From the NCBI GenBank assembly GCA_003202005.1, contig QJJF01000004.1, forward strand, positions 62,001 through 126,000: DNA of 64,000 nucleotides. The letters run 5' to 3'. Both the position numbers and the translations under genes were made by a program. The notes under the pieces were generated by a model. The model saw only the letters and a program-made list of their open reading frames with translations. It was not told where the DNA came from and searched no databases. This stretch comes from Williamsia faeni (GTDB lineage: Bacteria; Actinomycetota; Actinomycetes; Mycobacteriales; Mycobacteriaceae). Positions 2-47,251 of this stretch are shown in pieces; position 1 is the stretch's first letter; the number at the start of each line of letters is the position of its first letter.

Positions 2-769
2 GCCAGGATCCATGCCGCGGATCTGCTCGAGAGTGGGCATCCGGTGTTGCTGGAATCCTTCCTCGACGGACCTGAGGTGTCGCTGTTCTGCCTGGTCGAC
101 GGAGCCACAGTGGTCCCGCTGCTGCCGGCGCAGGACCACAAGAGGGTCGGTGACGGCGACGCCGGACCCAACACCGGCGGCATGGGTGCGTACACCCCGT
201 TGCCGTGGCTGCCCGACGCCATGGTCACGCAGATCGTGGACGACGTCGTCAAGCCTGTCGCAGCCGAGCTCCTGGCCCGCGGTATCCCGTTCTCCGGCTT
301 GCTCTATGCCGGACTCGCGATCGGCGCCGAGGGTCCGGCCGTCGTCGAATTCAACTGTCGCTTCGGCGATCCGGAGACACAGGCGGTGCTCGCCCTGCTC
401 AAGTCGCCGCTCGGTGTGGCATTGAACGCCACGGCCACCGGAACGCTCGCGGCGCTGGCGCCCCTGGAATGGGAAGACGGAGCCGCCGTGACCGTGGTCG
501 TGGCCGCCGAGAACTACCCGGGTCGGCCGCGGACCGGCGATCTGATCACCGGCTCCGACGGCGAAGGCGTCCTGCATGCGGGTACCACGATCTCCGACGG
601 TGCAGTGGTGTCCAACGGTGGCCGCGTGCTTAGTGTTGTCGGGGTCGGCGCCGACCTCGCCGCCGCGCGGGCCCAGGCCTACAGCCGGCTCGGAACGGTC
701 AAACTGGCGGGTTCACACTTCCGCACCGACATCGGGCTGGCCGCCGAAGAAGGCCGGATCAGCATCTGA
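2..769 (+). CDS. purD: Phosphoribosylamine-glycine ligase (PurD), 3' part
   Basis: C-terminal 255 residues of GAR synthetase, which joins glycine to 5-phosphoribosylamine with ATP in purine synthesis. The reading frame is already open at base 2, so the N-terminal part lies outside the window. Visible family features are the ATP-grasp segment with [17 protein letters not shown], the metal-binding stretch [14 protein letters not shown], and the C-terminal domain with [12 protein letters not shown]. The gene ends in TGA just before a long hairpin shared with the convergent esterase gene. purB, purC, purS and purQ lie downstream on the same strand, though not in one operon. Identification is secure; only the missing 5' end limits it. 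Confidence 0.97.
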
Positions 770-775
770 GGACGC

Positions 776-840
776 CCGAAAGTGGTGGGTTTTGGTGTGG
801 CCCACCTGGGCGTTTGCTCACCAGAACCCACCACTTTCGG
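776..840. terminator. Long hairpin between convergent genes (element A)
   Basis: The arms at 776-797 and 819-840 pair over 22 bp with one G-U pair, around a 21-nt loop (798-818). It sits exactly between the purD stop and the stop of the convergent esterase gene, so it probably ends transcription from both sides. The loop contains CACCTGGG and ends in TGCT, as does the loop of a second hairpin at 15028-15094. That conservation is not expected of a plain terminator. Confidence 0.75.
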
Positions 841-844
841 ACTT

Positions 845-1801
845 TCAGTCCGCGAGGCTGCGGCCGAGGAAGGCGATCTGTTCGGGGAGTACCCCACGCC
901 AGTACCGGTTGGTGTGTCCGCCAGGCGATGTGCCGAATGCCGGGGGTGGTCGGAGTCCGGCCATCCACTGGCGGGTGTAGGTGAAGAACTGGTCGCTGGA
1001 TCCGCATTCGATCAGCAGCGGTATCTGGGTGAACGAATCCTGTTGTCCGAAAAGAGAATTGGCCTGATAGTCGGCGAGGGTGTCGAAAGCTCGCGGAGGG
1101 AAGTTCGCAGGGTCGCCCCACAGTGCGGGCGAGCTGACCGCGATCGCCGCCACCCGTGGAGCGCCGAGCATCGCACCGAGGCGCAGCGCGCCGTATCCGC
1201 CCATCGACCAGCCGAAGAAGCCGATGCGATCGGTACGCAGGCCCAGCTCCGGGTTGCCTTCAAGGAGCGGGAGGAACTCGTCGAGCACCATCGCGCCGCC
1301 ATCGGTGCCGTCGGTCCGCGGGTGGTAGTAGCTGCGGACCGCATCCACCGAGGCCAGCGCAAACGGGGCGTTGCCCTCGGTTGCCCAGTCCTGCATCAGG
1401 CTCTGCATCTCCAGGCCGCCCATGAACGCGGCTCGATGGTCGGTGTTGAGAGCGTGCAGGACCACGACGACCGGGAGTTCGCCGGTCACCCCGGCGGGGC
1501 GGGCCACCATCCAGTTCGTCTCGCGCCCGAGCATCTGCGCCGATTCGAAACTGCCGGTGAATATCTCCGCGGCATCGGTGGGTGTGGGGGTCTTCGGTGC
1601 CTGGGCGGACGGATCATCGGCGCGCACCGGTTGGGGTGCGACCCGCTGAACCTTCTCGTCCGAGCATGCCGCCAGCAATCCGAGGGCTCCGGCCGCGAGC
1701 CCGGCACCCAGCAGCGCGCGACGGCCGGTCACCGGGCCACCGCGTGTCCGAGAGTCGCCGAGGGGTCCAGGCGAAGGGGCCTGGTTCGCGGAGGTAGTCA
1801 T
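845..1801 (-). CDS. Secreted lipoprotein esterase, alpha/beta hydrolase (Rv0774c-like)
   Basis: A 318-residue predicted serine esterase of the esterase D/antigen-85-like alpha/beta hydrolase fold. The N-terminus has a twin-arginine-like GRRALLGAGLAAGALGL segment followed by a lipobox LLAAC, so it is probably exported and lipid-anchored. The nucleophile elbow is GWSMGGYG with Ser199; a C-terminal GGHTNRYW supplies the likely catalytic His. I chose the ATG at 1801; starting further upstream would run into the divergent aminotransferase and add sequence with no signal-peptide character. M. tuberculosis has an exported esterase (Rv0774c) at the same place after purD, which supports orthology. The substrate is unknown. 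Confidence 0.82.
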   Translation of the reverse strand: MTTSANQAPSPGPLGDSRTRGGPVTGRRALLGAGLAAGALGLLAACSDEKVQRVAPQPVRADDPSAQAPKTPTPTDAAEIFTGSFESAQMLGRETNWMVARPAGVTGELPVVVVLHALNTDHRAAFMGGLEMQSLMQDWATEGNAPFALASVDAVRSYYHPRTDGTDGGAMVLDEFLPLLEGNPELGLRTDRIGFFGWSMGGYGALRLGAMLGAPRVAAIAVSSPALWGDPANFPPRAFDTLADYQANSLFGQQDSFTQIPLLIECGSSDQFFTYTRQWMAGLRPPPAFGTSPGGHTNRYWRGVLPEQIAFLGRSLAD

Positions 1802-1891
1802 CGCGAGACACGGTACCCGGTGGGTTGCGCCAGTTAGTCGCCGAATGGCGGTGAACTCCCGGTTTCGAAGGGGAACAGATAGTTTCGACGT

Positions 1892-3040
1892 ATGCGTTCG
1901 GAATCTCAAAGGTCCCAGGTCGAGATGTTCCATGTGATGGACGTGCAGGCCGCGATCGCTGCGCGGCGAGCCCGGGGTCTCGACGTCATCTCGCTTGCCG
2001 CCGGGCAGCCGTCGACGCCGGCGCCGGCCCCGGTCCTGGCCGCGACCACCAAGGCGCTGGGCGAATCGTTGCTCGGGTACACCGAGTCGCTGGGTATCGC
2101 GCCGCTACGCGAAGCGATCGCCGGACACTACCGCGACACCTACGACATCCCGGTGGAGCCCGACGACGTGGTGGTGACCACCGGATCCTCGGGTGCCTTC
2201 ACGCTGATCTTCCTGGCAGCGTTCGACGCCGGGGACACCGTTGCGATGGCCCGTCCCGGATACCCCGCGTACCGAAATGCGCTGTCGGCACTGGGCTGCG
2301 AGGTCATCGAACTCGATTGCGGTGCGCAGACCCGGTTCCAGCCGACGGTCGAGATGCTCGAAGCCCTGGATCGGCCGCCGGCCGGGTTGATCGTCGCGAG
2401 CCCGGCGAATCCGACGGGAACCATCCTCGACCCGGCCGAGCTGGCGGGCCTGGCGCGCTGGTGCGACGCCCACGGCACGTTGCTGATCTCGGACGAGATC
2501 TACCACGGCATCAGCTATGGCCGCGAGACGACGTGCGCGTGGAACACCTCGCGGCAGTCGGTGGTGATGGGTTCGGTGTCCAAGTACTTCAGCATGACGG
2601 GATGGCGCCTCGGCTGGATGCTGGTTCCACCGCCACTGCGCCGCCCGGTGGAACGGCTGACGGCGAATCTGACGATCTGCCCGCCGGCGATCAGTCAGTA
2701 CGCGGCGTGCGCCGCGTTCGGTCCGGAGTCGAAGATCGAGCTCGACGGTCACGTCACGCGGTACGCCAGGAATCGGGAAGTGTTGCTCGGCGGATTGGCC
2801 GATCTGGGTATCGACGACATCGCCCCACCGGATGGCGCCTTCTACGTCTATGCCGACCTCGGTGACCGGACCGACGACTCGTTGGGTTGGTGCGAGGGCG
2901 TGCTCGAACAAACCGGAGTGGCCATGGCGCCCGGGCTGGACTTCGATACCCGCCACGGAAATCGGACCGTCCGGATGAGTTTCGCCGGGGCCACCGAGGA
3001 CATCGCTCTGGCATTGGAGCGCCTCGCGCCGGTCCTCTAG
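1892..3040 (+). CDS. PLP-dependent class I/II aminotransferase
   Basis: A 382-residue aspartate-aminotransferase-fold enzyme. Seen: the Asn of SPANPTG, the Asp/Tyr of ISDEIYHGISYG, and the PLP-lysine motif SVSKYFSMTGWRLGW, all typical of fold-type I aminotransferases in the AspB/DapC group. A -10-like TAGTTT at 1880-1885 lies 6 nt before the ATG and no Shine-Dalgarno is seen, so the mRNA may be leaderless. The gene is divergent from the esterase. The amino donor/acceptor pair cannot be told from sequence; aspartate, alanine or aromatic substrates are all possible. The M. tuberculosis purD-purB interval does not have this gene as I recall it, so it may be a lineage-specific insertion. Confidence 0.85.
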   Translation: MRSESQRSQVEMFHVMDVQAAIAARRARGLDVISLAAGQPSTPAPAPVLAATTKALGESLLGYTESLGIAPLREAIAGHYRDTYDIPVEPDDVVVTTGSSGAFTLIFLAAFDAGDTVAMARPGYPAYRNALSALGCEVIELDCGAQTRFQPTVEMLEALDRPPAGLIVASPANPTGTILDPAELAGLARWCDAHGTLLISDEIYHGISYGRETTCAWNTSRQSVVMGSVSKYFSMTGWRLGWMLVPPPLRRPVERLTANLTICPPAISQYAACAAFGPESKIELDGHVTRYARNREVLLGGLADLGIDDIAPPDGAFYVYADLGDRTDDSLGWCEGVLEQTGVAMAPGLDFDTRHGNRTVRMSFAGATEDIALALERLAPVL

Positions 3041-3113
3041 CCGAAATGCTTGCGCAGCGCCAGTATTTGACGGAAACCACCCATCTCCGCGCGGCCTTTG
3101 CCACCATGACGGG

Positions 3114-3722
3114 GTGAACTCCGCAGGAACTCCCAAAGGTGCGCGCCGTCGGGCGCTGCTGATCGCTGCCGCGGGAGAGTTGCTACTGGAGGGTGGTTTT
3201 GATGCGGTCCGGCATCGTGCGGTCGCGGATCGGGCCGGACTGCCACTGGCGTCGACAACCTACTACTTTGCGTCTCTTGAAGATCTGGTCGCCGAGGCCG
3301 TCGAGCATGTCTGTGACGACGACCGGAACGCCATCGCCGAGCGAAGCCGAGCCCTCTCGCGGCGGCGTCGCGGTGCCGAGGCGACCGCGGAAGCGCTCGC
3401 TGAAGTGTTCGTCGGAGACGGCACGCCACGGGCCAGACTGACCTGTCGGTACGAAGCGGTGATCCTGTGTGCGCGGATGCCCCGCCTTCATCAGATACTC
3501 GCCGACCATCGGAACCGGATCCGGAACGTCCACTTCGACGTCCTGGAGAAGTCCGGGCGCAGCACAGACCTGTCCGGGATCGCGCAGTTGATGGCCGTCG
3601 AGGACGGTGTGGTGATCGGCGCGCTCGCCGATTCGGTCGACGATGTCGTCTCCGCGGCCAAGATCGCGCTGTGTGAAGTGATCGACCACGTGGCTCCGGT
3701 GGCACCGGTAGCGGTGGGCTGA
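3114..3722 (+). CDS. TetR-family transcriptional regulator
   Basis: A 202-residue TetR-type repressor with an N-terminal helix-turn-helix. The recognition region reads GGFDAVRHRAVADRAGLPL followed by STTYYFASLEDL, the usual TetR pattern with YYF at the end of the DNA-binding helices. The remainder is a helical ligand-binding domain. The start is a GTG at 3114. It sits between the aminotransferase and purB, at the place of Rv0775 (TetR) in M. tuberculosis. No obvious palindromic operator was found next to it, so its target is unknown; the upstream aminotransferase or the esterase are candidates. Confidence 0.85.
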   Translation: MNSAGTPKGARRRALLIAAAGELLLEGGFDAVRHRAVADRAGLPLASTTYYFASLEDLVAEAVEHVCDDDRNAIAERSRALSRRRRGAEATAEALAEVFVGDGTPRARLTCRYEAVILCARMPRLHQILADHRNRIRNVHFDVLEKSGRSTDLSGIAQLMAVEDGVVIGALADSVDDVVSAAKIALCEVIDHVAPVAPVAVG

Positions 3723-3757
3723 CCTGCGGCGGATGCGGACGGCATTCTCGGGTGCCG

Positions 3758-3763
3758 CATAAT
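3758..3763 (+). promoter_or_regulatory. -10 element of purB (leaderless start)
   Basis: CATAAT lies 6 nt upstream of the GTG at 3770, which would put the transcription start on the start codon. It would also place the alternative GTG at 3752 upstream of the transcript. Confidence 0.45.
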
Positions 3764-3769
3764 GTACGG

Positions 3770-5218
3770 GTGTCTGATACCGAGCAAACCCTGACGAAGC
3801 CCCGCGTGTCCAACGTCTTGGCCGGTCGCTATGCGTCCGTTGACCTGGTGCGACTGTGGTCGGCGGAGTACAAGATCGTCCTGGAGCGCCAGCTCTGGGT
3901 TGCGGTCCTGAAAGCGCAGCGGGAACTCGGAATCGACGTTCCGGCCGAGGCGATCGCCGACTACGAGCGGGTCCTCGACAAGATCGATCTGGAGTCGATC
4001 GCGCAGCGTGAACGGGTCACCCGGCACGACGTGAAGGCCAGGATCGAGGAGTTCAACGCCCTCGCCGGGCATGAACAGATCCACAAGGGCATGACCAGCC
4101 GCGACCTCACCGAGAACGTGGAGCAGCTGCAGATCCTGCGTTCGCTCGAACACGTCCACGCCCACGGTGTCGCCACCGCGGCCCGGCTCGCGGAACGGGC
4201 GGCTCAATACTCGTCTGTGGTGATGGCCGGACGCAGCCACAACGTCGCCGCGCAGGCGACCACGCTGGGCAAGCGTTTCGCCTCCGCTGCCGATGAATTG
4301 CTGATCGCACTGACCCGGCTGCGTGAGCTGATCAACCGCTACCCGCTGCGCGGCATCAAGGGGCCGATGGGCACCAGCCAGGACATGCTTGATCTGCTCG
4401 ATGGCGACGTGGAGAAGTTGTCGGAGCTGGAGTCGAAAGTTGCTCAGCACCTAGGCTTTTCGAAGTCGCTGACCTCGGTGGGTCAGGTCTACCCGCGCTC
4501 GCTCGACCACGATGTGGTGTCGGCACTGGTGCAGGTGGCGGCCGGACCGTCGTCGTTGGCGCAGACCATCCGCCTGATGGCCGGCCACGAGCTGGTGACC
4601 GAGGGCTTCCAGCCCGGACAGGTCGGCAGCTCGGCGATGCCGCACAAGATGAACACCCGCAGCTGTGAGCGGGTCAACGGTCTGCAGGTCATCCTGCGTG
4701 GCTATGGCTCGATGGCTGCCGAACTCGCCGGTGCCCAGTGGAACGAGGGCGACGTGTTCTGCTCGGTGATCCGCCGGGTCGCCCTGCCCGACGCGTTCTT
4801 TGCCATCGACGGATTGATGGAGACCTTCCTGACCGTCCTCGCCGAGTTCGGTGCGTACCCAGCGGTGATCGCCAACGAACTCGACCGCTACCTGCCGTTC
4901 CTCGCGACCACCAAGGTGCTGATCGCGGCAGTGCGTGCCGGAGTCGGACGTGAGGTCGCCCATGAGGCGATCAAAGAGAACGCGGTGGCCGTGGCGCTGG
5001 CGATGCGGGAAGACGGCCGCGAGCCCGACCTGCTCGACCGGCTGGCCGCCGACGACCGTCTGCCCTTGGACAAGGCGGCACTCGAAGCTGCACTCGCCGA
5101 CAAGTCGGCCTTCATCGGTGCTGCCGAACATCAGGTCGCCGCTGTGGTGGCGCAGGTCGCGGAGCTGGTCGCGCAGTACCCGGACGCCGCCGCGTATACC
5201 CCCGCTCCCATTCTCTGA
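3770..5218 (+). CDS. purB: Adenylosuccinate lyase
   Basis: A 482-residue enzyme that cleaves SAICAR to AICAR plus fumarate and adenylosuccinate to AMP plus fumarate. It shows the fumarase/aspartase-superfamily signature GSSAMPHKMN, plus GMTSRDLTENVEQ and GRSHNVAAQATTLGKRFASA, with strong resemblance to mycobacterial PurB throughout. I chose GTG 3770 over the in-frame GTG at 3752 because homologues begin near SNVLAGRYAS and a -10-like hexamer lies 6 nt upstream of 3770. The gene is followed by a repeat-rich spacer. Function is certain; the exact start is less so. Confidence 0.96.
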   Translation: MSDTEQTLTKPRVSNVLAGRYASVDLVRLWSAEYKIVLERQLWVAVLKAQRELGIDVPAEAIADYERVLDKIDLESIAQRERVTRHDVKARIEEFNALAGHEQIHKGMTSRDLTENVEQLQILRSLEHVHAHGVATAARLAERAAQYSSVVMAGRSHNVAAQATTLGKRFASAADELLIALTRLRELINRYPLRGIKGPMGTSQDMLDLLDGDVEKLSELESKVAQHLGFSKSLTSVGQVYPRSLDHDVVSALVQVAAGPSSLAQTIRLMAGHELVTEGFQPGQVGSSAMPHKMNTRSCERVNGLQVILRGYGSMAAELAGAQWNEGDVFCSVIRRVALPDAFFAIDGLMETFLTVLAEFGAYPAVIANELDRYLPFLATTKVLIAAVRAGVGREVAHEAIKENAVAVALAMREDGREPDLLDRLAADDRLPLDKAALEAALADKSAFIGAAEHQVAAVVAQVAELVAQYPDAAAYTPAPIL

Positions 5219-5228
5219 CCCGCGTCCG

Positions 5229-5428
5229 TCGAGCGTGCCCATAACGCCGCCGAGCGTGCCGAAGGTGCGGCAATAAAGGCACGCTCAACGGCAACAAAGG
5301 CACGCTCAACGGGGAGGACCGCCGAGCGTGCCCATCGAGCCGCCGAGCGTGCCGAAGGTGCGGCAATAAAGGCACGCTCAACGGCAATAAAGGCACGCTC
5401 GACGGGGACGGCCGCCGAGCGTGCCTTT
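5229..5428. repeat. GAGCGTGCC/GGCACGCTC repeat cluster 1, about 93-bp tandem unit
   Basis: The spacer after purB holds five GAGCGTGCC and four GGCACGCTC copies. A unit of about 93 bp is present roughly twice: a segment beginning CGCCGAGCGT at 5248 recurs at 5341 with few changes. The opposite orientations can form several alternative hairpins. The same core words fill the spacer at 57.2-57.6 kb, so this is a dispersed family rather than a local accident. No coding frame looks real here. Confidence 0.85.
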
Positions 5429-5449
5429 ATTGCGGGCTTCTTCAGGGGG

Positions 5450-5477
5450 TTGACACTCATCGACCTCGCAGTAGTAT
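5450..5477 (+). promoter_or_regulatory. Promoter of the arsR operon
   Basis: A perfect -35 TTGACA (5450-5455) and a -10-like TAGTAT (5472-5477) are separated by 16 nt. The operator at 5476-5510 begins inside the -10 and covers the expected transcription start, fitting autorepression. Confidence 0.65.
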
Positions 5478-5510
5478 TCAACTTGTTGGTTGATAACCAA
5501 TAGGTTGAAT
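5476..5510. promoter_or_regulatory. Operator of the ArsR-type repressor
   Basis: Two 16-nt arms, ATTCAACTTGTTGGTT and AACCAATAGGTTGAAT, flank a 3-nt GAT centre; 14 of 16 positions are complementary. AT-rich palindromes of this kind overlapping the promoter are typical binding sites of ArsR-family repressors. The site lies directly before the arsR gene. Confidence 0.7.
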
Positions 5511-5531
5511 AGCCCGGGAGGGTGGAAGCCG

Positions 5532-5888
5532 ATGGGTGCAGCAATGGCCGATCAACTCAGTGCCGTGTTCGCGGCGCTCGCTGATCCGACGCGGCGGGCG
5601 ATCTTGGAGCGACTGGCCGATGGCGAGGCCACGGTGTCGGCGCTTGCCGAACCGTTCGACATGAGTCTGGCCGCGGTGTCCAAACATCTGAAGGTCCTCG
5701 AACGCGCCGGTCTGATCTCGCGAGGTCGCGATGCCCAGTGGCGTCCGTGCTCGCTCGAGGCCCGACCGCTCGAGCAGGCCAGTGACTGGCTCGGCGAGTA
5801 CCGACGTTTCTGGGACACGAAATTCGATCGACTCGAAGAACACATCAACCGGATCGCCGGGTCCGGCAACCGAGAGGAAGAATCATGA
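5532..5888 (+). CDS. ArsR-family winged-helix repressor
   Basis: A 118-residue single-domain regulator. The helix-turn-helix reads ALADPTRRAILERLADGEATV then MSLAAVSKHLKVLERAGLI, the classic ArsR/SmtB arrangement. There is no CxC metal motif, so it is the non-metal subgroup usually encoded with an SRPBCC (AHSA1) protein. Start ATG 5532 follows a GGAGG; the upstream in-frame TTG at 5490 lies inside the operator and is unlikely. It overlaps the SRPBCC gene by 4 bp and probably represses the whole three-gene unit from the palindrome at 5476-5510. Confidence 0.9.
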   Translation: MGAAMADQLSAVFAALADPTRRAILERLADGEATVSALAEPFDMSLAAVSKHLKVLERAGLISRGRDAQWRPCSLEARPLEQASDWLGEYRRFWDTKFDRLEEHINRIAGSGNREEES

Positions 5889-6337
5889 CCGACACAGCAG
5901 ATCGAGAGTTCACGATCGTCCGCGAGTTCGCGGCGGGGCCCGAGGTGGTGTTCGACGCCTGGGTCGATCTGGACCAATTGTCGCAGTGGATGGCGCCCGA
6001 AGGCCTGACCACACCGCGTGAGCGCATGTACGGAGATCCGCGGCCCGGTGGCGGGTACGGCGCGGTGATGGTGCTCCCAGACGGACTCGAAGCATCCATC
6101 GATGGTGTTTACAAGGAGGTCGATCGCCCCGGCCGCCTGGTGTTCACGTGGCCCGATCCGACAACGCCGGAAAGTGTTTCGTTGTGCACGGTCACGTTTG
6201 TCGAATCGGCTCCGGGTCGGACCACCATGACCTTCCATCTGCTCGCGCCCGGTCCGATCAGTCCCGATGATGGCGCCAGAGTGGGCTGGAACAGCTGCTT
6301 CGACAAGCTGCACCGTCAGCTGGAGACAGCGCCATGA
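5885..6337 (+). CDS. SRPBCC (AHSA1/START-like) domain protein
   Basis: A 150-residue protein of the AHSA1 branch of the START/Bet v1-like fold, which forms a hydrophobic ligand cavity. Seen: the N-terminal TIVREFAAGPEVVFDAWVD, the QWMAPEG turn, and the C-terminal GWNSCFDKLHRQLE helix. Start ATG 5885 overlaps the arsR stop. Such proteins regularly partner ArsR regulators; the ligand and function are unknown. The following PPOX-fold gene overlaps by 4 bp, so all three are likely co-translated. Confidence 0.88.
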   Translation: MTDTADREFTIVREFAAGPEVVFDAWVDLDQLSQWMAPEGLTTPRERMYGDPRPGGGYGAVMVLPDGLEASIDGVYKEVDRPGRLVFTWPDPTTPESVSLCTVTFVESAPGRTTMTFHLLAPGPISPDDGARVGWNSCFDKLHRQLETAP

Positions 6338-6828
6338 TCACCGCCGACGCTCTACCGCAGGGAGACCTCGCGCTGCTCGAGACCGAGGTGGCGCAGGAAC
6401 TGCTGCACACGGACATCCCGGCTCGACTCGCGTACGTCGCCGCTGACGGCACACCCCGGGTGCTGCCGATGAATTTCTGGTGGAACGGCACCGAATTGGT
6501 GATGGCAACGTTCACCGGTGCCGCGAAGGTGCCGGCGCTACGACGACATCCGGCGGTTGCGCTGACGATCGACACCGTGGCCGGCAAACCCCATGTCCTG
6601 CAGATGCGCGGCGAGGCCGTCATCACCGACGTCGACGGTGTGGTCGAGGAATATGAGCTGATGATGCGCCGCGGCATGCCCGCCGAAGTGGCCGACGGAT
6701 ACTTCGCCGACCTGCGGGCCGGCGGGGCACAGATGCATCGCATCTCCGTGGTTCCGGCGTGGGTGGGTGTGCTCGACTTCGAAACACGTTTCCCGGGCGC
6801 GGCGCCGGCCGCGGTGAGGAAACGCTGA
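6334..6828 (+). CDS. Pyridoxamine 5'-phosphate oxidase-fold (split beta-barrel) protein
   Basis: A 164-residue small flavin- or F420-binding-fold protein. It shows the family pattern PARLAYVAADGTPRVLPM followed by FWWNGTELVMATFTGAAKV, with further strands through HVLQMRGEAVITDVDG. The length and N-terminal strand order fit the PPOX/F420-dependent FDOR-B type rather than true PdxH. It is the third gene of the arsR operon and converges with the Rdx-family gene 5 bp downstream. The substrate is unknown. Confidence 0.85.
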   Translation: MITADALPQGDLALLETEVAQELLHTDIPARLAYVAADGTPRVLPMNFWWNGTELVMATFTGAAKVPALRRHPAVALTIDTVAGKPHVLQMRGEAVITDVDGVVEEYELMMRRGMPAEVADGYFADLRAGGAQMHRISVVPAWVGVLDFETRFPGAAPAAVRKR

Positions 6829-6833
6829 CGGGA

Positions 6834-7124
6834 TCACTCGGGCGTCGAGTCCGCGTGGCCGAGGTTCCAGTCGGGTACGGCGATGTTCCGGACGAGCTTC
6901 TTGAGCGTCACGATGTCAGGGAAGCCGTTGTCCCGCTTGCGCTCCCAGATCAGCGTGCCGTCCACCTCGATGTGGAACACGCCGCCGGTGCCGGGAACCA
7001 GTGTGACCGAACCGAGCTCGGTGCCGAAGGTGTTGAGCAGTTCGGTGGCCATCCAGGATGCCCGGAGGACCCAGTTGCATTGGGTGCAGTAGGTGATGGT
7101 GACGGCAGCTTTCGATTCGCTCAC
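6834..7124 (-). CDS. SelT/SelW/SelH (Rdx)-family thioredoxin-fold protein
   Basis: A 96-residue protein with the Rdx-family redox motif CTQC in [15 protein letters not shown] near the N-terminus, followed by the conserved [17 protein letters not shown] and [12 protein letters not shown]. In selenoproteins the second Cys is Sec; here both are Cys. The start is GTG 7124, where homologues begin; a GACAAT hexamer 6 nt upstream could serve a leaderless transcript. A longer frame to 7220 would overlap the purC start and looks artefactual. Probably a small cytoplasmic redox protein; partner unknown. Confidence 0.85.
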
Positions 7125-7205
7125 GGGCCTATTGTCGCAGCCGTTTGCGTCGACGGTGCCGACCGAAGTGGGCCGGGCGGATACATCGCGTCCGTCGAGG
7201 GCCAC

Positions 7206-7211
7206 TAACCT
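7206..7211 (+). promoter_or_regulatory. -10 element of purC (leaderless start)
   Basis: TAACCT lies 7 nt upstream of the purC ATG at 7219 and no Shine-Dalgarno is present between them, so transcription probably begins at or next to the start codon. Confidence 0.45.
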
Positions 7212-7218
7212 TGAGGGC

Positions 7219-8112
7219 ATGCGTCCTGCTCTGGAGTCCTATGAACACCTCGCAGCCGGGAAGGTGCGGGATCTCTATTCGATCGACGACAACACCATGC
7301 TGATGGTTGCCTCGGACCGGATATCTGCGTTCGACCACATTTTGTCGACGCCGATCCCGGACAAAGGGCGCATCCTGACCGCGATGAGCGTCTACTACTT
7401 CGGTGCGCTGGGCGTTCCGCATCACCTGGCGGGCGGGCCCGAGGATCCACGGATTCCGGCGGAGCTACTAGGCCGGGCGCTGGTGGTCAAGAAGCTCGAC
7501 ATGCTGCCCGTCGAGTGCGTTGCGCGCGGATATCTCACCGGGTCGGGCCTGCTCGACTACAACGCCACCGGATCGGTCTGCGGGATCGAACTGCCGTCCG
7601 GTCTGGGCGAGTCCAGCAAGCTCCCCGAACCCATCTTCACCCCCGCGAGCAAGGCCACGATCGGAGAGCACGATGAGAACGTCAGCTTCGACGCGGTCGT
7701 GACCACCGTCGGTGAAGAGTTGGCGGTCCGTCTGCGGGACCTGACGCTCGACATCTACTCGCGTGGGTCGCAATTGGCGGCCGAGCGCGGAATCATCTTG
7801 GCCGACACCAAGTTCGAGTTCGGACTCGACGGCGACGGCACGGTGGTGCTGGCCGACGAGGTCCTCACCCCGGACAGCTCGCGATACTGGGATGCCGACA
7901 CCTACACACCCGGACAGGTGCAGCCGAGTTTCGACAAGCAGATCGTCCGCAACTGGCTCATCAGCCCCGATTCCGGATGGGATCGGGCTGCTGACACTCC
8001 ACCACCGGCTCTGCCCGACGACATCGCGCAACGCACTCGCGTCCGCTATATCGAAGCGTACGAACGTATTTCAGGCCTGTCATTCGATGATTGGCCAAGA
8101 GGAGAGCAGTGA
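7219..8112 (+). CDS. purC: SAICAR synthetase
   Basis: A 297-residue phosphoribosylaminoimidazole-succinocarboxamide synthase, which couples CAIR with aspartate using ATP. Seen: [54 protein letters not shown], and [12 protein letters not shown], all characteristic of PurC. The length equals that of the mycobacterial protein when started at ATG 7219; an upstream extension to 7093 would read through the antisense Rdx gene. It overlaps the ptrB start by 4 bp (GTGA), so both are translated from one transcript. Confidence 0.97.
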
Positions 8113-10226
8113 ACGACACCTCGAAGGATTCCGCAGCCACCGTGCCGCGCGTCGCAAAACAGGTTCCATTCGAACGTACCCATCACGGTGAGACCGTGAT
8201 CGACCACTACGAGTGGTTGCGGGACAAAGAGGATCCCGAGGTCATCGCGTTCCTCGAGCAGCAGAACGAGTACACCGCTGCCCGCACCGCCGAGCTCGCC
8301 GATCTGCGCGCCGACATCTACGGCGAGATCAAAAGCCGCACACAGGAAACCGACATGTCGGTGCCCACCCGGCGGGGTCAGTACTGGTACTACGCCCGCA
8401 CCGAGGAGGGCAAGCAGTACTCGCTGAGTGCACGCTGCCCGATCAGCGGCCCGGACGACTGGACTCCACCGACCGTGGAACCGGGGCAGCCGGTTCCGGG
8501 TGAAGAGATCCTGCTGGACTCCAATGTCGAGGCCGAGGGCACCGATTTCTTCAGTCTGGGCGCGTTATCGGTCAGCGAGGACGGCACGCTTCTGGCCTAC
8601 AGTGTCGACAACACCGGCAACGAGCGATACACGATGCGGTTCAAGGACCTTCGTACCGGTGATCTGCTCGCCGACGAGATCGCCGATACGGCGCCGGGTG
8701 CGCTGTGGTCGCTGGACGGCCGTCACGTTTTCTACCAGACGGTGGACGAGGCCTGGCGTCCCGACACGGTGTGGCGGCACGACCTCGGTGCCGGTACCCC
8801 GGACGTCAAAGTGTTCCACGAACCCGACGAGCAGTACTGGGTCGGCATCGGCGGAACCCGCAGCGACAAGTACCTGATGATCACGATCGGATCGAAGATC
8901 ACCTCGGAGGTCTGGGTCCTCGACGCCCACGATCCCACCGGTGAGTTCTCGGTGGTGTGGCCGCGCGAAGAGGGTGTCGAATACGGCGTCGAACATGCCG
9001 TCATCGAGGATCGTGATTGCTTCCTGATCCTGCACAACGCCAACGCCGAGAACTTCGAGCTGCTCGAGGCCCCGATCAGCGATCCCACCGCGACCCGCAT
9101 CCTGGTCGCGCACGACCCGGCGGTTCGCCTCGAGGACGTCGACGCGTTTGCCGGCCAGCTGGTCCTGAGCTACCGGCGTGAAGCGTTGCCGCGACTGTCG
9201 ATCGCCCCACTGACAACCGGCGACCCGGTGTTCACCGAAGTCGCCTTCGATGAGGAGCTGTACTCGGCCGGTCTCGGGGCCAATCCCGAATGGGCGGCCC
9301 CGCGACTGCGCATCGGATACACGAGTTTCATCAACCCAACAGAGGTCTTCGACCTCGATGTCGCCACCGGTGAGCGCACGCTGCTCAAACGCCAGCAGGT
9401 GCTCGGCGACTTCGATCCGGCCGACTACGAGCAGCGCCGCGACTGGGCCACCGCACCCGATGGCACCAAGATCCCGTTGTCGGTGATCCGCCGCAGCGGC
9501 GCCGCTGCCGGGCCGGCCCCGACATTGTTGTACGGCTACGGTTCCTACGAATCCAGCAACGATCCGGGCTTCTCGATCTCGCGGCTGTCACTGCTCGACC
9601 GTGGCGTCGTCTTTGTGGTCGCCCACATCCGTGGCGGTGGCGAGATGGGTCGCCACTGGTATGACAACGGCAAGACCCTGACAAAGAAGAACACCTTCAC
9701 CGACTTCGTCGCCGCGGCACGGCATCTCATCGACACCGGCGTCACCGACGCCGAACATCTGGTGGGTGAGGGCGGCAGTGCCGGTGGTCTGCTGATCGGT
9801 GCCGTCGCCAACATGGCGCCGGAACTGTTCAACGGAATCCTGGCGGTCGTGCCGTTTGTGGATCCGCTGACGTCCATCCTCGACCCCTCATTGCCCCTGA
9901 CGGTCATCGAGTGGGACGAATGGGGAAATCCGCTGGCGGACAAAGAGGTCTACGACTACATGCGGTCGTACTCACCGTACGAGAATGTCGCCGAATTGCC
10001 CTACCCCGAGATCCTGGCGGTCACCTCCCTCAATGACACCCGGGTGCTGTTCACCGAGGCGGCCAAATGGGTTGCCCGTCTTCAGGCCAACACCACCGGT
10101 GACGCCCCGATCCTGCTCAAGACCGAGATGAAAGCCGGGCACGGCGGCGTCAGTGGGCGCTACAAGCAGTGGGAAGAGGTTGCCTTCGAGTACGCCTGGG
10201 TCCTGCGGCAGACCGGCGCCGTCTGA
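8109..10226 (+). CDS. ptrB: Oligopeptidase B (S9A prolyl oligopeptidase family)
   Basis: A 705-residue serine peptidase cutting short peptides after basic residues. It has an N-terminal seven-bladed propeller and a C-terminal alpha/beta-hydrolase domain. The catalytic triad is visible as Ser557 in [10 protein letters not shown], Asp643 in SLNDTRV and His678 in AGHGGVSG. The start is GTG 8109 with AGGAG upstream, overlapping the purC stop. The purC-ptrB linkage matches M. tuberculosis purC-ptrB, where ptrB is split into two frames; here it is intact. No signal peptide, so cytoplasmic. Confidence 0.95.
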
Positions 10227-10248
10227 TCTGTCCCACAACCGAATACAG

Positions 10249-10291
10249 ACAACAGCGCCGCCCGGGAAGATTCCCCGGGCGGCGCTGTTGT
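10249..10291. terminator. Bidirectional terminator between ptrB and the MFS gene
   Basis: A G/C-rich inverted repeat with arms around ACAGCGCCGCCCGGG and CCCGGGCGGCGCTGT and a short AAGATTC-like loop. It lies between convergent stops and has T-rich or A-rich flanks on both sides. Confidence 0.8.
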
Positions 10292-10309
10292 CGTGTAGTG
10301 CGCGAATCG

Positions 10310-11764
10310 CTAGTGCATCATCACCGGCACGGGCTTGTCGTTGGTTTCGAGCACCCGGGCAACTGCCTTGCGCGGCAAGAAGAATGCCGGGATGAAGCAG
10401 AGCGCTATCAGAAGGGTGGTGACGACGAACGTGGCACCGAACCCGCCGGCCATGTCGGTCAGGTTCTCGGCGCCCTTGAGGTTGTTGACCAGGATCACCG
10501 AGGTGATGGCGGTACCCACCGAGCCGGCGGCCTGCTGAACCACATTCATCAGGGTCGAACCGTCCGGCACCTGACTGTCGGACAGGGTTCCCAGCGCGGC
10601 AGACATGATCGGCATCATCGTCATTCCCATACCGAGACCCTGCACGAACAGCGCGATGCTCAGCAGCCAGAACGAGGTGTCCGGGCCGACGTAGATGAAG
10701 GCGCCCATACCCAGGGTGATCAAGACGATGCCGATCATCACCAACTTGCCGGGGCCCTGCTTGTCGGTGAGCTTGCCCGACATCGGCATGGTGAGCATCG
10801 CGCCGAGTCCCTGCGGTGCCAGCAGCAACCCGGTCATCAGGGTCGACTCGCCGCGTACGCCGATGTAGTACTGCGGGAACAGCAGTGCGGCACCGAGGAA
10901 CGCGATCATGAAGAACGTCATGGTGGTCACGGCCATGGTGAGCTTGCGGTTCTTGAACAGGCTCAGATCGAGCAGCGGATTCGTCGCGCGGGTCGCGTGG
11001 AAGACGAACCCGATCATCAGGAGCAGTCCAATGCCGGCGGTGACGAGGACCGGGGTGTCGGTGAAGCTGCCGTGTTCGGTGCTCAGGGAGATGCCGTACA
11101 GGAACAGCGCCAAACCGGGTGAGAGCAGCAGTAGTCCGATGAAGTCGAACGAGGGTCGCGCCCTCTCTGACTGGCCGGGCAGGATGACAAACGCGTAGAA
11201 GAAGGCGGCGATGCCGATCGGCACGTTGATCAGGAAGATCCAGTGCCAGCTGGCGTATTCGATGAGTGCGCCGCCGATGATCGGGCCCATGATGGGGCCG
11301 AGCAGCATCGGGACACCGAGCATGGCCATGACCGAACCGACGCGGGCCGGACCGGCCGCCTTGGTCAAGATCATCATTCCGATGGGCATGAGCATGCCGC
11401 CACCGAGGCCCTGGAGAACGCGGAACACGGTCAGGGACGTGATGTCCCAGGCGAGCGCGCACAGTGCCGAGCCGAGCACGAACAGGACCAGCGACGTCAG
11501 ATAGACGTTCCTGGTGCCGAATCGGGCAGCGGCCCAACTGGACAGCGGGATCACGGCGGCAAGTGCCAGTGTGTAGCCGGTGATGGTCCAGGCCGCCCCG
11601 GCCTGGTTGGTGTTGAACTCTTCCTGGAATGTGTTCTGCGCCACCGATACAACGGTGGTGTCGAGGATCGCCATGATGGCGCCGAGCACGACTACTACGG
11701 CAATCTTCAGGACGGCCGGATCAAGCTTTTGACTCGGCAGCGCGGCCTTGTCGGTCGAGGTCAT
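10310..11764 (-). CDS. DHA2-family MFS drug/proton antiporter (EmrB/QacA type)
   Basis: A 484-residue, 14-helix transporter. Seen: the DHA2 motif AILDTTVVSVAQNTFQEEF in helix 1, SWAAARFGTRNVYL between helices 2 and 3, and the antiporter motif region PARVGSVMAMLGVPMLLGP around helix 5. The start at 11764 is supported by homologue N-termini. It occupies the position of emrB (Rv0783c) after ptrB in M. tuberculosis. An inverted repeat 100 bp upstream (11866-11884) could be its operator. The exported substrate is unknown. Confidence 0.88.
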   Translation of the reverse strand: MTSTDKAALPSQKLDPAVLKIAVVVVLGAIMAILDTTVVSVAQNTFQEEFNTNQAGAAWTITGYTLALAAVIPLSSWAAARFGTRNVYLTSLVLFVLGSALCALAWDITSLTVFRVLQGLGGGMLMPIGMMILTKAAGPARVGSVMAMLGVPMLLGPIMGPIIGGALIEYASWHWIFLINVPIGIAAFFYAFVILPGQSERARPSFDFIGLLLLSPGLALFLYGISLSTEHGSFTDTPVLVTAGIGLLLMIGFVFHATRATNPLLDLSLFKNRKLTMAVTTMTFFMIAFLGAALLFPQYYIGVRGESTLMTGLLLAPQGLGAMLTMPMSGKLTDKQGPGKLVMIGIVLITLGMGAFIYVGPDTSFWLLSIALFVQGLGMGMTMMPIMSAALGTLSDSQVPDGSTLMNVVQQAAGSVGTAITSVILVNNLKGAENLTDMAGGFGATFVVTTLLIALCFIPAFFLPRKAVARVLETNDKPVPVMMH

Positions 11765-11865
11765 CAAAGTGCTTTCTGCAAAAGGGTTGAAATGCTTCGT
11801 CTTCGGTATCGCCGGCGATGCCGACGCAAGCAATCACTTGGACGCCCGGTGATCGGTGCAGTCCT

Positions 11866-11884
11866 GATACCGGCTAACGGTATC
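11866..11884. promoter_or_regulatory. Candidate repressor operator upstream of the MFS gene
   Basis: GATACCG and CGGTATC form a perfect 7-bp inverted repeat around GCTAA. It lies about 100 bp upstream of the MFS start, in the 266-bp spacer shared with the divergent deacetylase-like gene. No adjacent regulator is seen, so this is only a candidate. Confidence 0.35.
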
Positions 11885-12030
11885 GTCCAGGCAACCGTCG
11901 ACTCCTACGCAAACAATGTGCGATCCACTACAGGTGGCACCAGCAGTGAGTCGGGTCACCTGCGTGTGCCGGGTGTTCGTATGTTGTCCACATCGAGGCA
12001 ACCGCCTGACCACGTCCGACGGCGATACTG

Positions 12031-12741
12031 ATGGCCGTGACCGGACAACTCATCGTGTCCATCTCGGGCATCAGAACGGAAACCCTGGAAGCGACTGCGG
12101 CCTTCACCGAACGGCTCGCCGCACGAGACGTTCCGGTCTCGTTGCTGGTCGCCCCGCGTCTGAAGGGTCGATACCGGCTGGCCGACGACGCCGCGACCTG
12201 CGAATGGCTGCGTGGGCGCCGGGCCGGGAACGACGCGATCGTGCTCCACGGATACGACCAGGCGCCGGTGCGTCGTCGTCGTGCAGAGTTCGCTGTGTTG
12301 GGTGCGCACGAGGCCGACCTGCGACTACTCGCCGCCGACCGTGTTCTCGAACGGATGGGACTGCGCACGCGCATATTCGCCGCACCCCGCTGGAACTCCT
12401 CGCCGGGTGCCCGGCAAGTGCTGCCCGGCCGGGGTTTCCGGATCGACCTGGGCCTGACGTCGATCGACAACCTCGTCACCGGTCATCGCCTGCGCGCCCG
12501 GGTGCTGGGCATCGGCGACGGATTCGGGACCGATGCCTGGTGGTGCCGGTTGCTGATCGCCAACACGGTGCGGGTGGCCCGTCGCGGAGGAATCGTCCGG
12601 CTCTCGGTGGCGGCCAAACATCTGGACACCCCGATGGCCGCCAACGCGCTGATCAACTGTGTCGATCTGGCGCTGCTGCAAGGAGCTTTGCCGACGACGT
12701 ATCGGACGGTGGAGGCATCGGCTGCCCGCAGCGCTGCCTGA
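12031..12741 (+). CDS. DUF2334/polysaccharide-deacetylase-like protein
   Basis: A 236-residue protein resembling the DUF2334 branch of the NodB-like deacetylase fold: an N-terminal strand VSISGIRTETLE, a VLHGYDQ motif where the metal His would lie, and a FAAPRWNSSPG segment corresponding to the catalytic-barrel PxW region. The usual Asp-Asp of the first NodB motif is not obvious, so catalysis is uncertain. It has no signal peptide. It sits between the MFS gene and purS, at the position of Rv0787 upstream of purS in M. tuberculosis. The substrate is unknown. Confidence 0.7.
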   Translation: MAVTGQLIVSISGIRTETLEATAAFTERLAARDVPVSLLVAPRLKGRYRLADDAATCEWLRGRRAGNDAIVLHGYDQAPVRRRRAEFAVLGAHEADLRLLAADRVLERMGLRTRIFAAPRWNSSPGARQVLPGRGFRIDLGLTSIDNLVTGHRLRARVLGIGDGFGTDAWWCRLLIANTVRVARRGGIVRLSVAAKHLDTPMAANALINCVDLALLQGALPTTYRTVEASAARSAA

Positions 12742-12821
12742 TCGGAGTCCTCCCGCCGGGAAGTCTGCCGTCAGCCGGTAGAGTTACGTCCAGCAAACCG
12801 CAGCTGAAGAGGAGTTCCGAA

Positions 12822-13070
12822 GTGGCCCGAGTCGTAGTGGACGTCATGCCCAAAGCCGAGATCCTGGACCCGCAGGGACAGGCGATCAGTGGCGCCCTGG
12901 GCCGACTCGGATTCGCCGGTGTCGCCGATGTCCGGCAGGGCAAGCGATTCGAGCTGGAGGTCGACGACTCGGTCGACGACGAGGCCCTGGACCGGATCGC
13001 CTCCGAACTCCTGGCGAACACCGTCATCGAGGACTACTCGGTGACCCGGGTCGACGGCGCATCGTCGTGA
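12822..13070 (+). CDS. purS: FGAM synthase subunit PurS
   Basis: An 82-residue small subunit of the three-part phosphoribosylformylglycinamidine synthase, which helps transfer ammonia from PurQ to PurL. Recognised by [19 protein letters not shown] near the N-terminus and [17 protein letters not shown], typical of PurS. The start is GTG 12822 with AGAGGAG upstream; a much longer open frame extends 5' but has no PurS character. The stop overlaps the purQ GTG start by 4 bp. purL is not in the window. Confidence 0.95.
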
Positions 13071-13747
13071 CCGCACGGATCGGGGTCATCACGTTCCCCG
13101 GAACACTCGACGACATCGACGCTGCCCGGGCCGTGCGCCTATCCGGCGGCGAGGCGGTTGATCTGTGGCACGGCGACAGCGACCTCAAGGGCGTCGACGC
13201 GGTTGTCGTGCCCGGCGGATTCTCCTACGGCGACTACCTGCGCGCCGGTGCGATCGCCCGATTTGCGCCCGTGATGGGTTCGCTGGTCGAGGCCGCCGGC
13301 AAGGGTTTGCCGGTTCTGGGGATCTGCAACGGTTTCCAGGTGCTGTGTGAGGCCGGGCTGCTGCCGGGTGCGCTCACCCGCAACCAGGGACTGCACTTCA
13401 TGTGCCGCGACCAGTGGCTGCGCGTCGAGTCCAACACCTCGGCCTGGAGCAGCCGCTTCGAACAGGGTGCCGAGATCCTGGTCCCGTTGAAGTCCGGTGA
13501 GGGACGGTATGTCGCTTCTGAAGCCGTGCTCGACGAGCTCGAGGGCGAAGGCCGGGTGGTCTTCCGTTACGCCGGCGACAACCCGAACGGGTCGATGCGT
13601 TCGATCGCGGGTATCTCCAGTGCCAACGGCAAGGTTGTCGGATTGATGCCGCATCCCGAGCACGCCACCGAAGCGCTGACCGGTCCCAGCGACGACGGTC
13701 TGGGTCTCTTCTACTCGGCCCTCGACGCCGTTCTCGCCAACGCCTGA
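13067..13747 (+). CDS. purQ: FGAM synthase glutaminase subunit PurQ
   Basis: A 226-residue class I glutamine amidotransferase that releases ammonia from glutamine for the fourth step of purine synthesis. Seen: the oxyanion/nucleophile stretch [11 protein letters not shown] with the catalytic Cys, [20 protein letters not shown], and the catalytic His-Glu in [10 protein letters not shown]. The start is GTG 13067 overlapping purS. The following aminopeptidase gene begins 8 bp after the stop. Confidence 0.97.
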
Positions 13748-13754
13748 GCCGCAC

Positions 13755-15026
13755 ATGGTGACAACGTCCGCCGATGCCGCCGGTCTCTGTAGTTTCGTCG
13801 ATGCGTCACCGTCGCCGTTCCACGTCTGTGAATCGGTGGCAAAAGTTCTGGAAGCCAATGACTTTCGGGAGCTGAAAGAGTCGCACCAGTGGCCGTCGCA
13901 GCCCGGTCGGCACTACGTCATCCGGGGCGGATCGATTGTCGCCTGGGACAGCACCGCCCGCGGTCGTAGCTTTCGTATCGTCGGTGGCCACACCGACAGT
14001 CCCAACCTTCGCGTCAAGCAGAACCCGGACCTGCGTTCGGCCGGCCTGCGGATGGTCGGACTGGAGAAGTACGGCGGTGCCTGGCTCAACTCCTGGCTCG
14101 ATCGTGATCTCGGCATCTCGGGCCGTCTCGCCATCCGCGAGCCCGACGGCCTGCGTGAACATCTGATCCGCATCGACGAACCGGTACTGCGCGTCCCGCA
14201 ACTCGCGATCCATCTCTCGGAGGATCGCGCCGGGGTGTCACTGGATCCGCAGCGTCACGTGAACGCGGTGTGGGGTGTCGGGGTCGATGGCCCGGGATTC
14301 ATGGAATGGATTGCGGCGCAGGCAGGTGTGGCGCTCGATCAGGTTCTCGGTTGGGAACTGATGACCCACGATCTGGCCCCGAGCCGGGTCGTCGGGGTCG
14401 GCGGCGACCTCATCAGTGCACCACGCCTGGACAACCAGGGCACCTGCTACGCGGGTACCCGAGCGCTCATCGACGCCATCGAATCGGAGTCGTCGGCAGC
14501 CATCCCGGTGCTGGCCCTCTTCGATCACGAGGAGGTCGGCAGTGGTTCGGACCGCGGTGCGTCGTCGGATCTGCTCGGTACCGTACTCGAGCGAATTGTG
14601 CTGGCCGGCGGTGGATCTCGGGAAGACTACCTGCGGTCGATGGCGATGAGTGCCTGCGCGTCCGGAGACATGGCACATGCCACGCACCCCAACTATCCCG
14701 ATCGCCACGAGCCGGCGCATCAGATCGCCATCAACGGTGGTCCGGTACTGAAGGTGAACCAGAATCTGCGTTACGCCAGCGATGCGGCCGGCGAAGCGCT
14801 GTTCGCGGTCGCGGCCGATAAGGCGGGGGTCCCGCTTCAGCGGTACGTCCATCGTGCCGACCTGCCCTGTGGTTCGACGATCGGACCGCTGACCGCCACC
14901 CGCACCGGACTCAACACCGTTGATGTCGGTGCGCCGCAGCTTGCGATGCACAGCGCCCGTGAGGTCATGGGCAGCGCCGACGTCGGTATGTACTCCGCCG
15001 CCCTCGCCGCGTTCCTCGCTCCCTGA
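13755..15026 (+). CDS. pepC: M18-family aspartyl/general aminopeptidase
   Basis: A 423-residue dinuclear zinc aminopeptidase. Metal and catalytic motifs are present: [42 protein letters not shown], and [15 protein letters not shown] with the C-terminal metal His. Length and order fit the M18 family. It lies just after purQ, as pepC (Rv0800) lies near purQ and purL in M. tuberculosis. It is followed by a long hairpin (15028-15094) and converges with the VOC gene. Cytoplasmic peptide turnover is the likely role. Confidence 0.93.
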
Positions 15027-15027
15027 A

Positions 15028-15094
15028 CCCGATGATGTGGCCTTTTGGCGGCTCTCACCTGGGGAAATGCTCGCCAAAAGGCCACATCATCGGG
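15028..15094. terminator. Long hairpin between convergent genes (element B)
   Basis: The arms 15028-15050 and 15072-15094 pair perfectly over 23 bp around a 21-nt loop (15051-15071). It lies between the stops of pepC and the VOC gene. The loop shares CACCTGGG and terminal TGCT with element A at 776-840, and both inner stems end in TTTTGG(T/C)G with a compensating change on the other arm. Confidence 0.75.
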
Positions 15095-20652: not shown

Positions 20653-20692
20653 TTTGCTCCGCCCACCGACAATTGTCGGTGGGCGGAGCAAA
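20653..20692. terminator. Perfect 40-bp palindrome
   Basis: Both 20-nt arms (20653-20672 and 20673-20692) are exactly complementary with no spacer. It follows the DUF1772 stop by 39 bp, so termination is the simplest role. Only a run of Ts upstream and AAA downstream flank it. Confidence 0.6.
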
Positions 20693-23622: not shown

Positions 23623-23660
23623 AGAAGGGGCGCAACCACGAAAGTGGTTGCGCCCCTTCT
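23623..23660. terminator. Rho-independent terminator of clpC
   Basis: A perfect 17-bp stem (23623-23639 with 23644-23660) closed by a GAAA tetraloop and followed by TTTG. It lies 10 bp after the clpC stop and can also stop kstR transcripts arriving from the other side. Confidence 0.9.
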
Positions 23661-47210: not shown

Positions 47211-47251
47211 AAAACACCATCCACGCAATCAGATTGCGTGGATGGTGTTTT
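47211..47251. terminator. Bidirectional terminator
   Basis: A 20-bp perfect stem (47211-47230 with 47232-47251) around a single A, with A-run on one side and T-run on the other. It lies between convergent genes. Confidence 0.88.

Follow-up and report, generated by a model that had tools for sequence, protein, structure and literature searches.

Two long hairpins, hairpin 1 and hairpin 2, are located in a stretch of 64,000 nt of the Williamsia faeni genome (contig QJJF01000004.1; this whole stretch is called the window), and each of them takes up almost the whole gap separating a pair of convergent genes (Table 1). An earlier note on this DNA had described both as structured elements with different stems and related loops between converging stop codons. 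Direct reading of the sequence confirmed the arms of both hairpins, and the converging stops were found at 769/845 and 15026/15109. The stop codon of purD is located 6 nt upstream of hairpin 1 and that of the convergent esterase-like gene 4 nt past it; the start of the latter gene is uncertain (1732 according to our own gene caller). The stem of hairpin 2 is perfect over 23 bp, as expected from the claim that the stems pair fully, while the 22-bp stem of hairpin 1 includes one G-U pair, for which this wording is slightly too strong. Both loops comprise 21 nt, of which 13, among them CACCTGGG and the final TGCT, were found by eye to be equal in the two, exactly as had been noted.

RNA folding of the plus strand yielded -48.8 kcal/mol (z -7.8) for hairpin 1 and -53.0 kcal/mol (z -10.4) for hairpin 2, and none of 200 shuffled sequences was as stable in either case. 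With both strands included, z values against shuffles ranged from -7.1 to -11.2. Furthermore, a covariance model (R1) gave low E values within the window only at hairpins 1 and 2 (8e-18, 6e-17), the next place having an E value of 0.02. The two hairpins are thus real and do not represent chance structures.

Table 1 Parts of the two hairpins and convergent genes adjoining them in the window
Feature	Positions	Strand	Remarks
PurD (phosphoribosylamine-glycine ligase), C-terminal part	44..769	+	GARS_A, GARS_C; gene extends past window start
Hairpin 1, 5' arm	776..797	+	22 bp, class B stem: ...GTGGTGGGTTTTGGTG
Hairpin 1, loop	798..818	+	21 nt; CACCTGGG..TGCT, motif on + strand
Hairpin 1, 3' arm	819..840	+	
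Esterase-like gene, convergent	845..1933	-	translation reading only, without Pfam match
M18 aminopeptidase	13755..15026	+	Peptidase_M18; stop 1 nt ahead of hairpin 2
Hairpin 2, 5' arm	15028..15050	+	23 bp, class A stem: GATGATGTGGCCTTTTGGCG
Hairpin 2, loop	15051..15071	+	21 nt; CACCTGGG..TGCT, motif on + strand
Hairpin 2, 3' arm	15072..15094	+	
Glyoxalase-domain gene, convergent	15109..16395	-	stop 14 nt past hairpin 2

A hairpin family with a constant loop core and a covarying stem

The window belongs to a genome of 5.5 Mb (G000). Model R1 was built from 20 copies: among the first 30 loci with the loop motif, 20 share an ungapped 23/21/23 layout (alignments A1/A2), and the other ten (L006, L009, L010, L011, L014, L019, L023-L026) were discarded as chance matches to the motif. 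A search of G000 with R1 gave 110 matches at E≤10, which fall on at least 57 separate sites, most of them matched on both strands. The best E value was ≤0.002 at 56 of the 57 sites and 0.0055 at the last one; the number of sites is a lower bound, as 150 of 2847 first-look candidates were scored. At 51 of the 57 sites the element consists of exactly 23 bp of stem, a loop of 21 nt and the 23-nt opposite arm (a 71-nt match including 4 flanking nucleotides). A related insert extends the loop to 53-56 nt at four sites, and two sites have loops of about 18 and 27 nt. In the long-loop members (G000:C8:34621-34725, C6:228266-228371, C3:251709-251813 and C2:434163-434265) the insert is of the GGAGACGAAGCCG..GGAGCTCGACCC type, i.e. 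a repeat nested in a repeat.

The 16-nt loop motif by itself (≤2 mismatches) is not enriched in G000, where 244+249 matches compare with 362+361 for the reversed control; the window contains 8 matches versus 5.65 expected. As it does not exceed the reversed control, the motif alone was dropped as evidence. Since motif and stem together are enriched, the family signal consists of the motif plus the stem. The earlier note had proposed a covariance-model search of the genome and its relatives, and was prepared to take the match of two loops for chance if no further copies turned up. Such copies were found, and the view of a structured family with conserved loop and covarying stem, as opposed to two unrelated terminators, is supported by the 57 sites, by the presence of the family in all nine genomes of the genus examined and by the recurrence of its loop core in other genera, where the stems differ.

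Covariation was quantified in an alignment (A3) of 83 sequences, 79 of them distinct, comprising 51 of the 57 G000 sites, 24 sequences from other genomes of the genus and eight from Tsukamurella (those of its 14 R1 matches that extend over 71 nt). In the 79 sequences 90.9% of 1817 stem cells are paired, compared to 38-49% in slid controls. Double changes occur in 18 of the 23 stem pairs, and 245 doubly changed cells contrast with 83 in shuffled and 40-68 in slid controls. A stem longer than 23 bp was rejected: beyond 23 bp the pairing drops to that of shuffled sequences, and the flanks are only C-rich on the left and G-rich on the right. Stem columns 9-12 show three discrete states (TGTG, TGGT and TGGG) and hardly any others. 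In 83 of 154 elements from three genomes of the genus (G000, G003 and G005), the outer 7-mers of the two arms show at least two differences.

Per-position conservation of the loop core ACCTG amounts to 96-100% in the 79 distinct sequences and to 94-100% in the 154 elements, percentages which are upper estimates, inflated because the sets were partly picked by this very motif. Better evidence for a constant loop comes from the elements of Tsukamurella and of one more genus (g34), which were detected with the whole-element model and retain the 21-nt loop and its core on other stems (e.g. CCGATTGAACGACGTTCTGGAG, CCCGGAAATGTGTGGTTTCGGTG). The core common to the genera reads [CG]ACCTG[CG]G. Within the loop, a mini-hairpin in two registers is paired to 74.1% and 77.2%, versus 68.4% and 68.6% after shuffling, a level of pairing that none of 500 shuffles reached, and covariation is seen in one pair of loop columns (z 5.5); neighbouring registers are nearly or equally good. 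A nested terminator, formed by this inner mini-hairpin and TTTT, may exist but was not adopted, because some copies have A instead of the T-run and the direction of the loop is random.

Outside the genus R1 gave weak matches in one of 16 other genera sampled from the bacterial family and a single weak match in one of 16 genomes elsewhere in the order. In a separate R1 search two of 23 genomes were matched: Tsukamurella asaccharolytica with 14 matches and Lolliginicoccus lacisalsi with one weak site that has another loop. Ten named genomes (eight Gordonia, two Williamsia) gave no match to R1. Among the named genomes matched, PurB of G000 is most similar to that of Williamsia herbipolensis (89%), followed by Gordonia amarae and a few others (86-87%); closer relatives may be missing from this comparison. 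A broader model (R2) matched 34 of 401 genomes of the bacterial family (12 candidates were scored per genome, so that absences are weak), namely nine of this genus, 13 of group g46 including G196, with contigs matching those of T. asaccharolytica, three of g34 and nine others with one to four weak matches each. The loops at L238, L239, L241, L243 and L244, from five of these nine, are without the motif. In a class-wide sample, with 33 candidates scored per genome and absences likewise weak, weak matches were obtained in three of 147 other genomes. Two of the loci, L352 and L353, form very long hairpins with GACCTGGGCATTTGC or CACCTGGGGTTTTAC in the loop, and these letters give a hint of a wider spread.

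Placement, loop direction and turnover

The position relative to genes was analysed for 162 sites, comprising the 57 of G000 and, among the matches listed (E≤1e-7), 77 of G003 and 28 of G005; the G003/G005 set leaves out three contig-edge sites and one long-loop site in G003. Elements were located by a scan for the loop motif with ≤1 mismatch and a stem-letter filter, which recovered 47 of the 57 G000 sites, the other ten being added from the model. Genes were called by our own codon-usage script trained on the window, not by standard annotation. There are 102 sites between convergent genes, 55 between tandem genes, five between genes called divergent and none inside genes. For comparison, convergent pairs make up 8 of 55 neighbouring gene pairs in the window (Fisher p ~3e-10) and 17 of 199 further pairs at these loci. 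The median distance to the stop codon is 3 nt, with 230 of 259 distances between -8 and 15 nt, and at 53 of the 55 tandem sites the hairpin is closer to the upstream stop than to the downstream start (medians 1 and 51 nt). Nine loci of g46 and g34, examined with the same gene caller, include six convergent, two tandem and one divergent. This placement is the pattern of a gene-end signal. The earlier note had objected that a plain terminator needs no conserved loop; nevertheless a terminator-like role may apply, the placement behind stop codons being the strongest functional signal.

At the tandem sites the loop points in the direction of transcription in 25 cases and in the opposite direction in 30. 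Orthologous junctions (61 pairs, drawn from three genome pairs and thus not independent) have the same loop direction in 34 and a flipped one in 27 cases, or 32 and 27 if one-to-one pairs are considered. Counted by hand for 21-nt loops, the ratio of same to flipped is 16/7 for G000-G003, 9/9 for G003-G005 and 5/7 for G000-G005; direction is most often kept in the G000-G003 pair. The random direction at tandem genes and the differences between orthologs disfavour one of the earlier proposals, in the form of an RNA hairpin on the gene's own transcript with a protein reading the loop. A relation of loop direction to the replication strand is suggestive at most. In G005, where dnaA lies at 401 kb, the loop runs with the leading strand at 22 of 33 sites among the matches listed (counted by hand with the terminus taken at ~3.4 Mb and an ambiguous site at 3.45 Mb excluded), and on contig C1 of G000 it does so at 12 of 21.

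Only part of the sites is shared between species, 26 of the 57 G000 sites being occupied at the G003 ortholog. The stem classes A and B agree in 25 of 53 orthologous cases. Stem identity amounts to 0.72 for orthologs of the same direction, 0.67 for flipped ones and 0.70 for random non-orthologous pairs; with a flank identity of ~80% between orthologs, saturation contributes to the divergence of the stems. Stem columns 9-12 read TGGG in 30 of 76 G003 elements, in none of 51 in G000 and in one of 27 in G005, and at seven orthologous sites TGTG is found in G000 where G003 has TGGG. According to this distribution a variant of the stem has come to occupy many sites within one lineage. Among the nine genomes of the genus, three have a full family copy at the junction behind the M18 gene, one has a truncated copy, four have a different stable hairpin and one has neither, as if some hairpin were usually wanted there. 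A second type of palindromic repeat (CCTCCGACTTCGGCC ... CCTCCGGTTG ... GTCGGAGG and similar) was observed at the same two junctions in other genomes of the genus, just past the M18 gene (L213-L216) and past purD (L219-L221).

Possible explanations of the family

The family, its architecture, the covariation, the placement, the lack of a direction preference and the turnover are established. We favour, with a rough probability of 0.55, the explanation that the dispersed 23/21/23 hairpins act as an orientation-blind 3'-end hairpin serving the genes on either side and are, in addition, copied or rewritten as DNA. It combines two layers, a gene-end function, which we rate at about the same value, and an underlying DNA hairpin that would be copied or rewritten. 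In a transcript from either gene the long stem would fold directly behind the stop codon; it might stop or stall RNA polymerase, or else a hairpin-protected 3' end might remain after factor-dependent termination and trimming. As a consequence, read-through into the opposing gene would be reduced. A two-way gene-end hairpin explains the placement, the pairing and the missing direction preference. Random direction, flips between orthologs and the spread of a stem variant argue for copying or rewriting as DNA, by which the lineage variant could have come to many sites and the loop could have been flipped at many orthologous junctions. Whatever copies or binds the element as DNA may recognise it by the conserved loop. 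A loop core that stays constant while stems are interchangeable and the direction at conserved junctions is random can hardly be squared with an ordinary terminator, and suggests a copying process at the DNA level; a loop-directed process of this kind explains the conserved loop, the flips and the spread, but no enzyme was found in the searches made.

Several points weigh against this explanation. The two-way gene-end hairpin leaves the conserved loop unexplained, and five of the 162 sites lie between genes called divergent. Five or more T within 8 nt past the stem are present at just 3 of 324 ends (162 sites, both strands). The terminating ribosome could partly melt hairpins only 0-3 nt from the stop codon. 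The RNA polymerase of mycobacteria is said (reportedly Czyz et al. 2014) to need a U-tract. Within 150 nt past purD the family hairpin occurs in G000 only of the nine genomes of the genus, and one of these genomes is without a hairpin of either type at the M18 junction. Thus neither junction always needs a family hairpin. Finally, the placement could also have arisen if a selfish element can land without harm only in short gaps between convergent genes.

A selfish mobile DNA hairpin is the strongest of the alternatives, although we consider it rather doubtful. An enzyme would recognise the single-stranded loop or a cruciform and copy or insert the 67-bp unit; convergent gaps would serve as harmless insertion places, and effects on transcription would be a by-product. 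Mobility fits a loop core that is the most constant part, yet random in direction at tandem genes and differing in direction between orthologs, as well as the variable presence of sites between species (the purD site, the partial occupancy in G003), the stem variant at numerous sites in one lineage and the occurrence of this loop core with different stems in other genera. However, the Y1/RAYT transposase domain (PF01797) was detected in none of 24 genomes, while a control search was positive in 5 of 14 well-known genomes. The class A arm never occurs alone, since all 54 matches with 0-1 mismatch are inside known hairpins (class B arms were not searched). Hairpin 2 had no BLAST match at E≤1 in plasmid and phage collections, and two exact loop patterns had none in viral contigs. 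Neither a target duplication nor a clean empty site was seen among the species compared, which include no close strain pair and whose flanks differ too much for a search aimed at target duplications. Moreover, occupied junctions are often common to species, so that movement is not free. With regard to loop direction a mobile or rewritten DNA hairpin fares better than the protein-read RNA hairpin of the earlier note, but neither an enzyme nor a target duplication or clean empty site was found for it; the earlier interpretation as a whole is partly supported.

A further alternative, which appears unlikely, is a conserved class of terminators whose copies are rewritten where they stand, either by gene conversion or by template switching among copies or between arms, with flips arising from inversion at the inverted repeat and not by transposition. 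Junctions that stay occupied while class and direction of the element change are in line with it, and so are the discrete states of columns 9-12 and the different common variants that the two arms of one element often carry (83 of 154 elements). Nevertheless, 67 bp without flanking homology are short for RecA-dependent conversion, and sites of a single genome, such as that behind purD in G000, are left unexplained. With ~80% flank identity neutral sites may also be saturated, and the divergence of orthologous stems could in part be ordinary paired mutation. Very improbable is a DNA-binding site with the two 23-bp arms as inverted half-sites for a protein that organises the chromosome or acts as a roadblock, and with stems that track the specificity of this protein: orientation-blind, strictly spaced arms and a lineage-wide shift of the stem would suit it, but compensated variation in 18 of 23 pairs is not required by double-stranded binding, and the genera share the loop core and not the arms.

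Comparison with known systems and other repeats

The hairpins resemble canonical (L-shaped) intrinsic terminators as a stable hairpin follows the stop codon at a median of 3 nt. In contrast to these, they lack the U-tract (3 of 324 ends) and have a fixed 23/21/23 layout and a conserved loop core; the family is not a canonical intrinsic terminator. Repetitive extragenic palindromic elements (REP/REPIN) are described by Di Nocera et al. 2013 (PMC3733652) as dispersed extragenic palindromes mainly between convergent or co-directional genes, with stems of 6-9 bp in most of the GTAG type and a GTAG or CGTC tag on the repeats. The present family is likewise dispersed and extragenic, with 157 of 162 sites convergent or tandem, but its stems are 23 bp and its loops 21 nt long, no tetranucleotide tag like GTAG or CGTC is conserved in the base frequencies of the flanks, and no Y1 (RAYT) transposase was found (PF01797, 0 of 24 genomes). 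Membership in REP/REPIN thus fails on stem length, tag and transposase. A miniature inverted-repeat element (MITE) of a DDE transposon or a parent transposon with the same ends was also rejected, as lone class A arms are missing (class B arms were not searched): 67 of 72 arm matches are inside hairpins, and the other five carry 2 mismatches. Inverted uptake signals of Haemophilus form hairpins at gene ends, where the stem word is the repeated part, with ~1300 copies in the genome (PMC5217627). Here, too, a repeated inverted sequence doubles as a gene-end hairpin; unlike the uptake sequence, however, the class A arm is not found singly and the loop core is the constant part.

The 'Tuberculosis Rho-Independent Terminator' (TRIT) is reportedly a conserved structured motif at the 3' ends of genes in the same bacterial family (said to stem from RNIE, Gardner et al. 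2011). Our family is likewise enriched at gene 3' ends. A 'TRIT model' is named in a methods sentence of PMC3526491. At nine mycobacterial loci we observed hairpins that combine a stem of GATTT type with an apical CYCACC or CCACC on either strand and are not necessarily TRIT; they were selected by eye for this stem type out of a larger set of folded motif matches (23 loci), many of which are apparently chance folds. Six of the nine are located behind a stop codon and three between genes called divergent (own gene calls); compared with our family, the stems are different, and so are most of the loops. At the 3' end of one apparently orthologous gene, as judged from the C-terminal residues, L126, L131 and L160 carry the apical motif on the minus strand, L132 and L165 on the plus strand. 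This strand switching resembles the behaviour of the family and may be a link, on few sites and our own scan. Tentatively, a class of loop-recognised DNA hairpins in Mycobacteriaceae might be envisaged: a host enzyme reading the [CG]ACCTG loop would copy or re-insert the 67-bp unit at gene ends regardless of direction, the stem would drift while staying paired, the host would use the copies as two-way signals, and the mycobacterial gene-end hairpins may be an older branch.

Rfam gave nothing at gathering threshold in the window, and at E values up to 5 only microRNA families below their cut-offs for L040, L047, L168 and L229. No description of the family was found in the literature searched, most subscription papers and the RNIE paper being outside the reach of the search. 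The closest kinds are REP/REPIN and TRIT. The family falls among the dispersed palindromes at gene ends, and its constant loop with flipping direction is the surprising part. There is debate on how high-GC mycolic-acid bacteria end their transcripts, and a countable family of hairpins of fixed size offers a direct test set. Hairpins without a poly-U stretch were suggested to replace classical terminators in these bacteria (PMC3207917).

Further palindromes were observed. Convergent-gap hairpins at L351, L354 and L355 (genome G466 of another actinobacterial family) share an inner stem of the CCCT(T/C)CTGGCG / CGCCAGAAGGG type but have a short loop of CTAGAT type. In the window a perfect 19-bp hairpin with a 7-nt loop (GACAACAGCGCCGCCCGGG) is located at 10248-10292 in the convergent gap 10226-10310 and does not belong to the family, and other perfect inverted repeats of 17-20 bp with loops of 0-4 nt are present at 20653-20692, 23623-23660 and 47211-47251. 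At 5226-5433 (behind purB) and 57212-57617, copies of a CCG(T/C)CGAGCGTGCC-like unit are clustered in alternating inverted orientation; they represent another dispersed palindromic repeat family.

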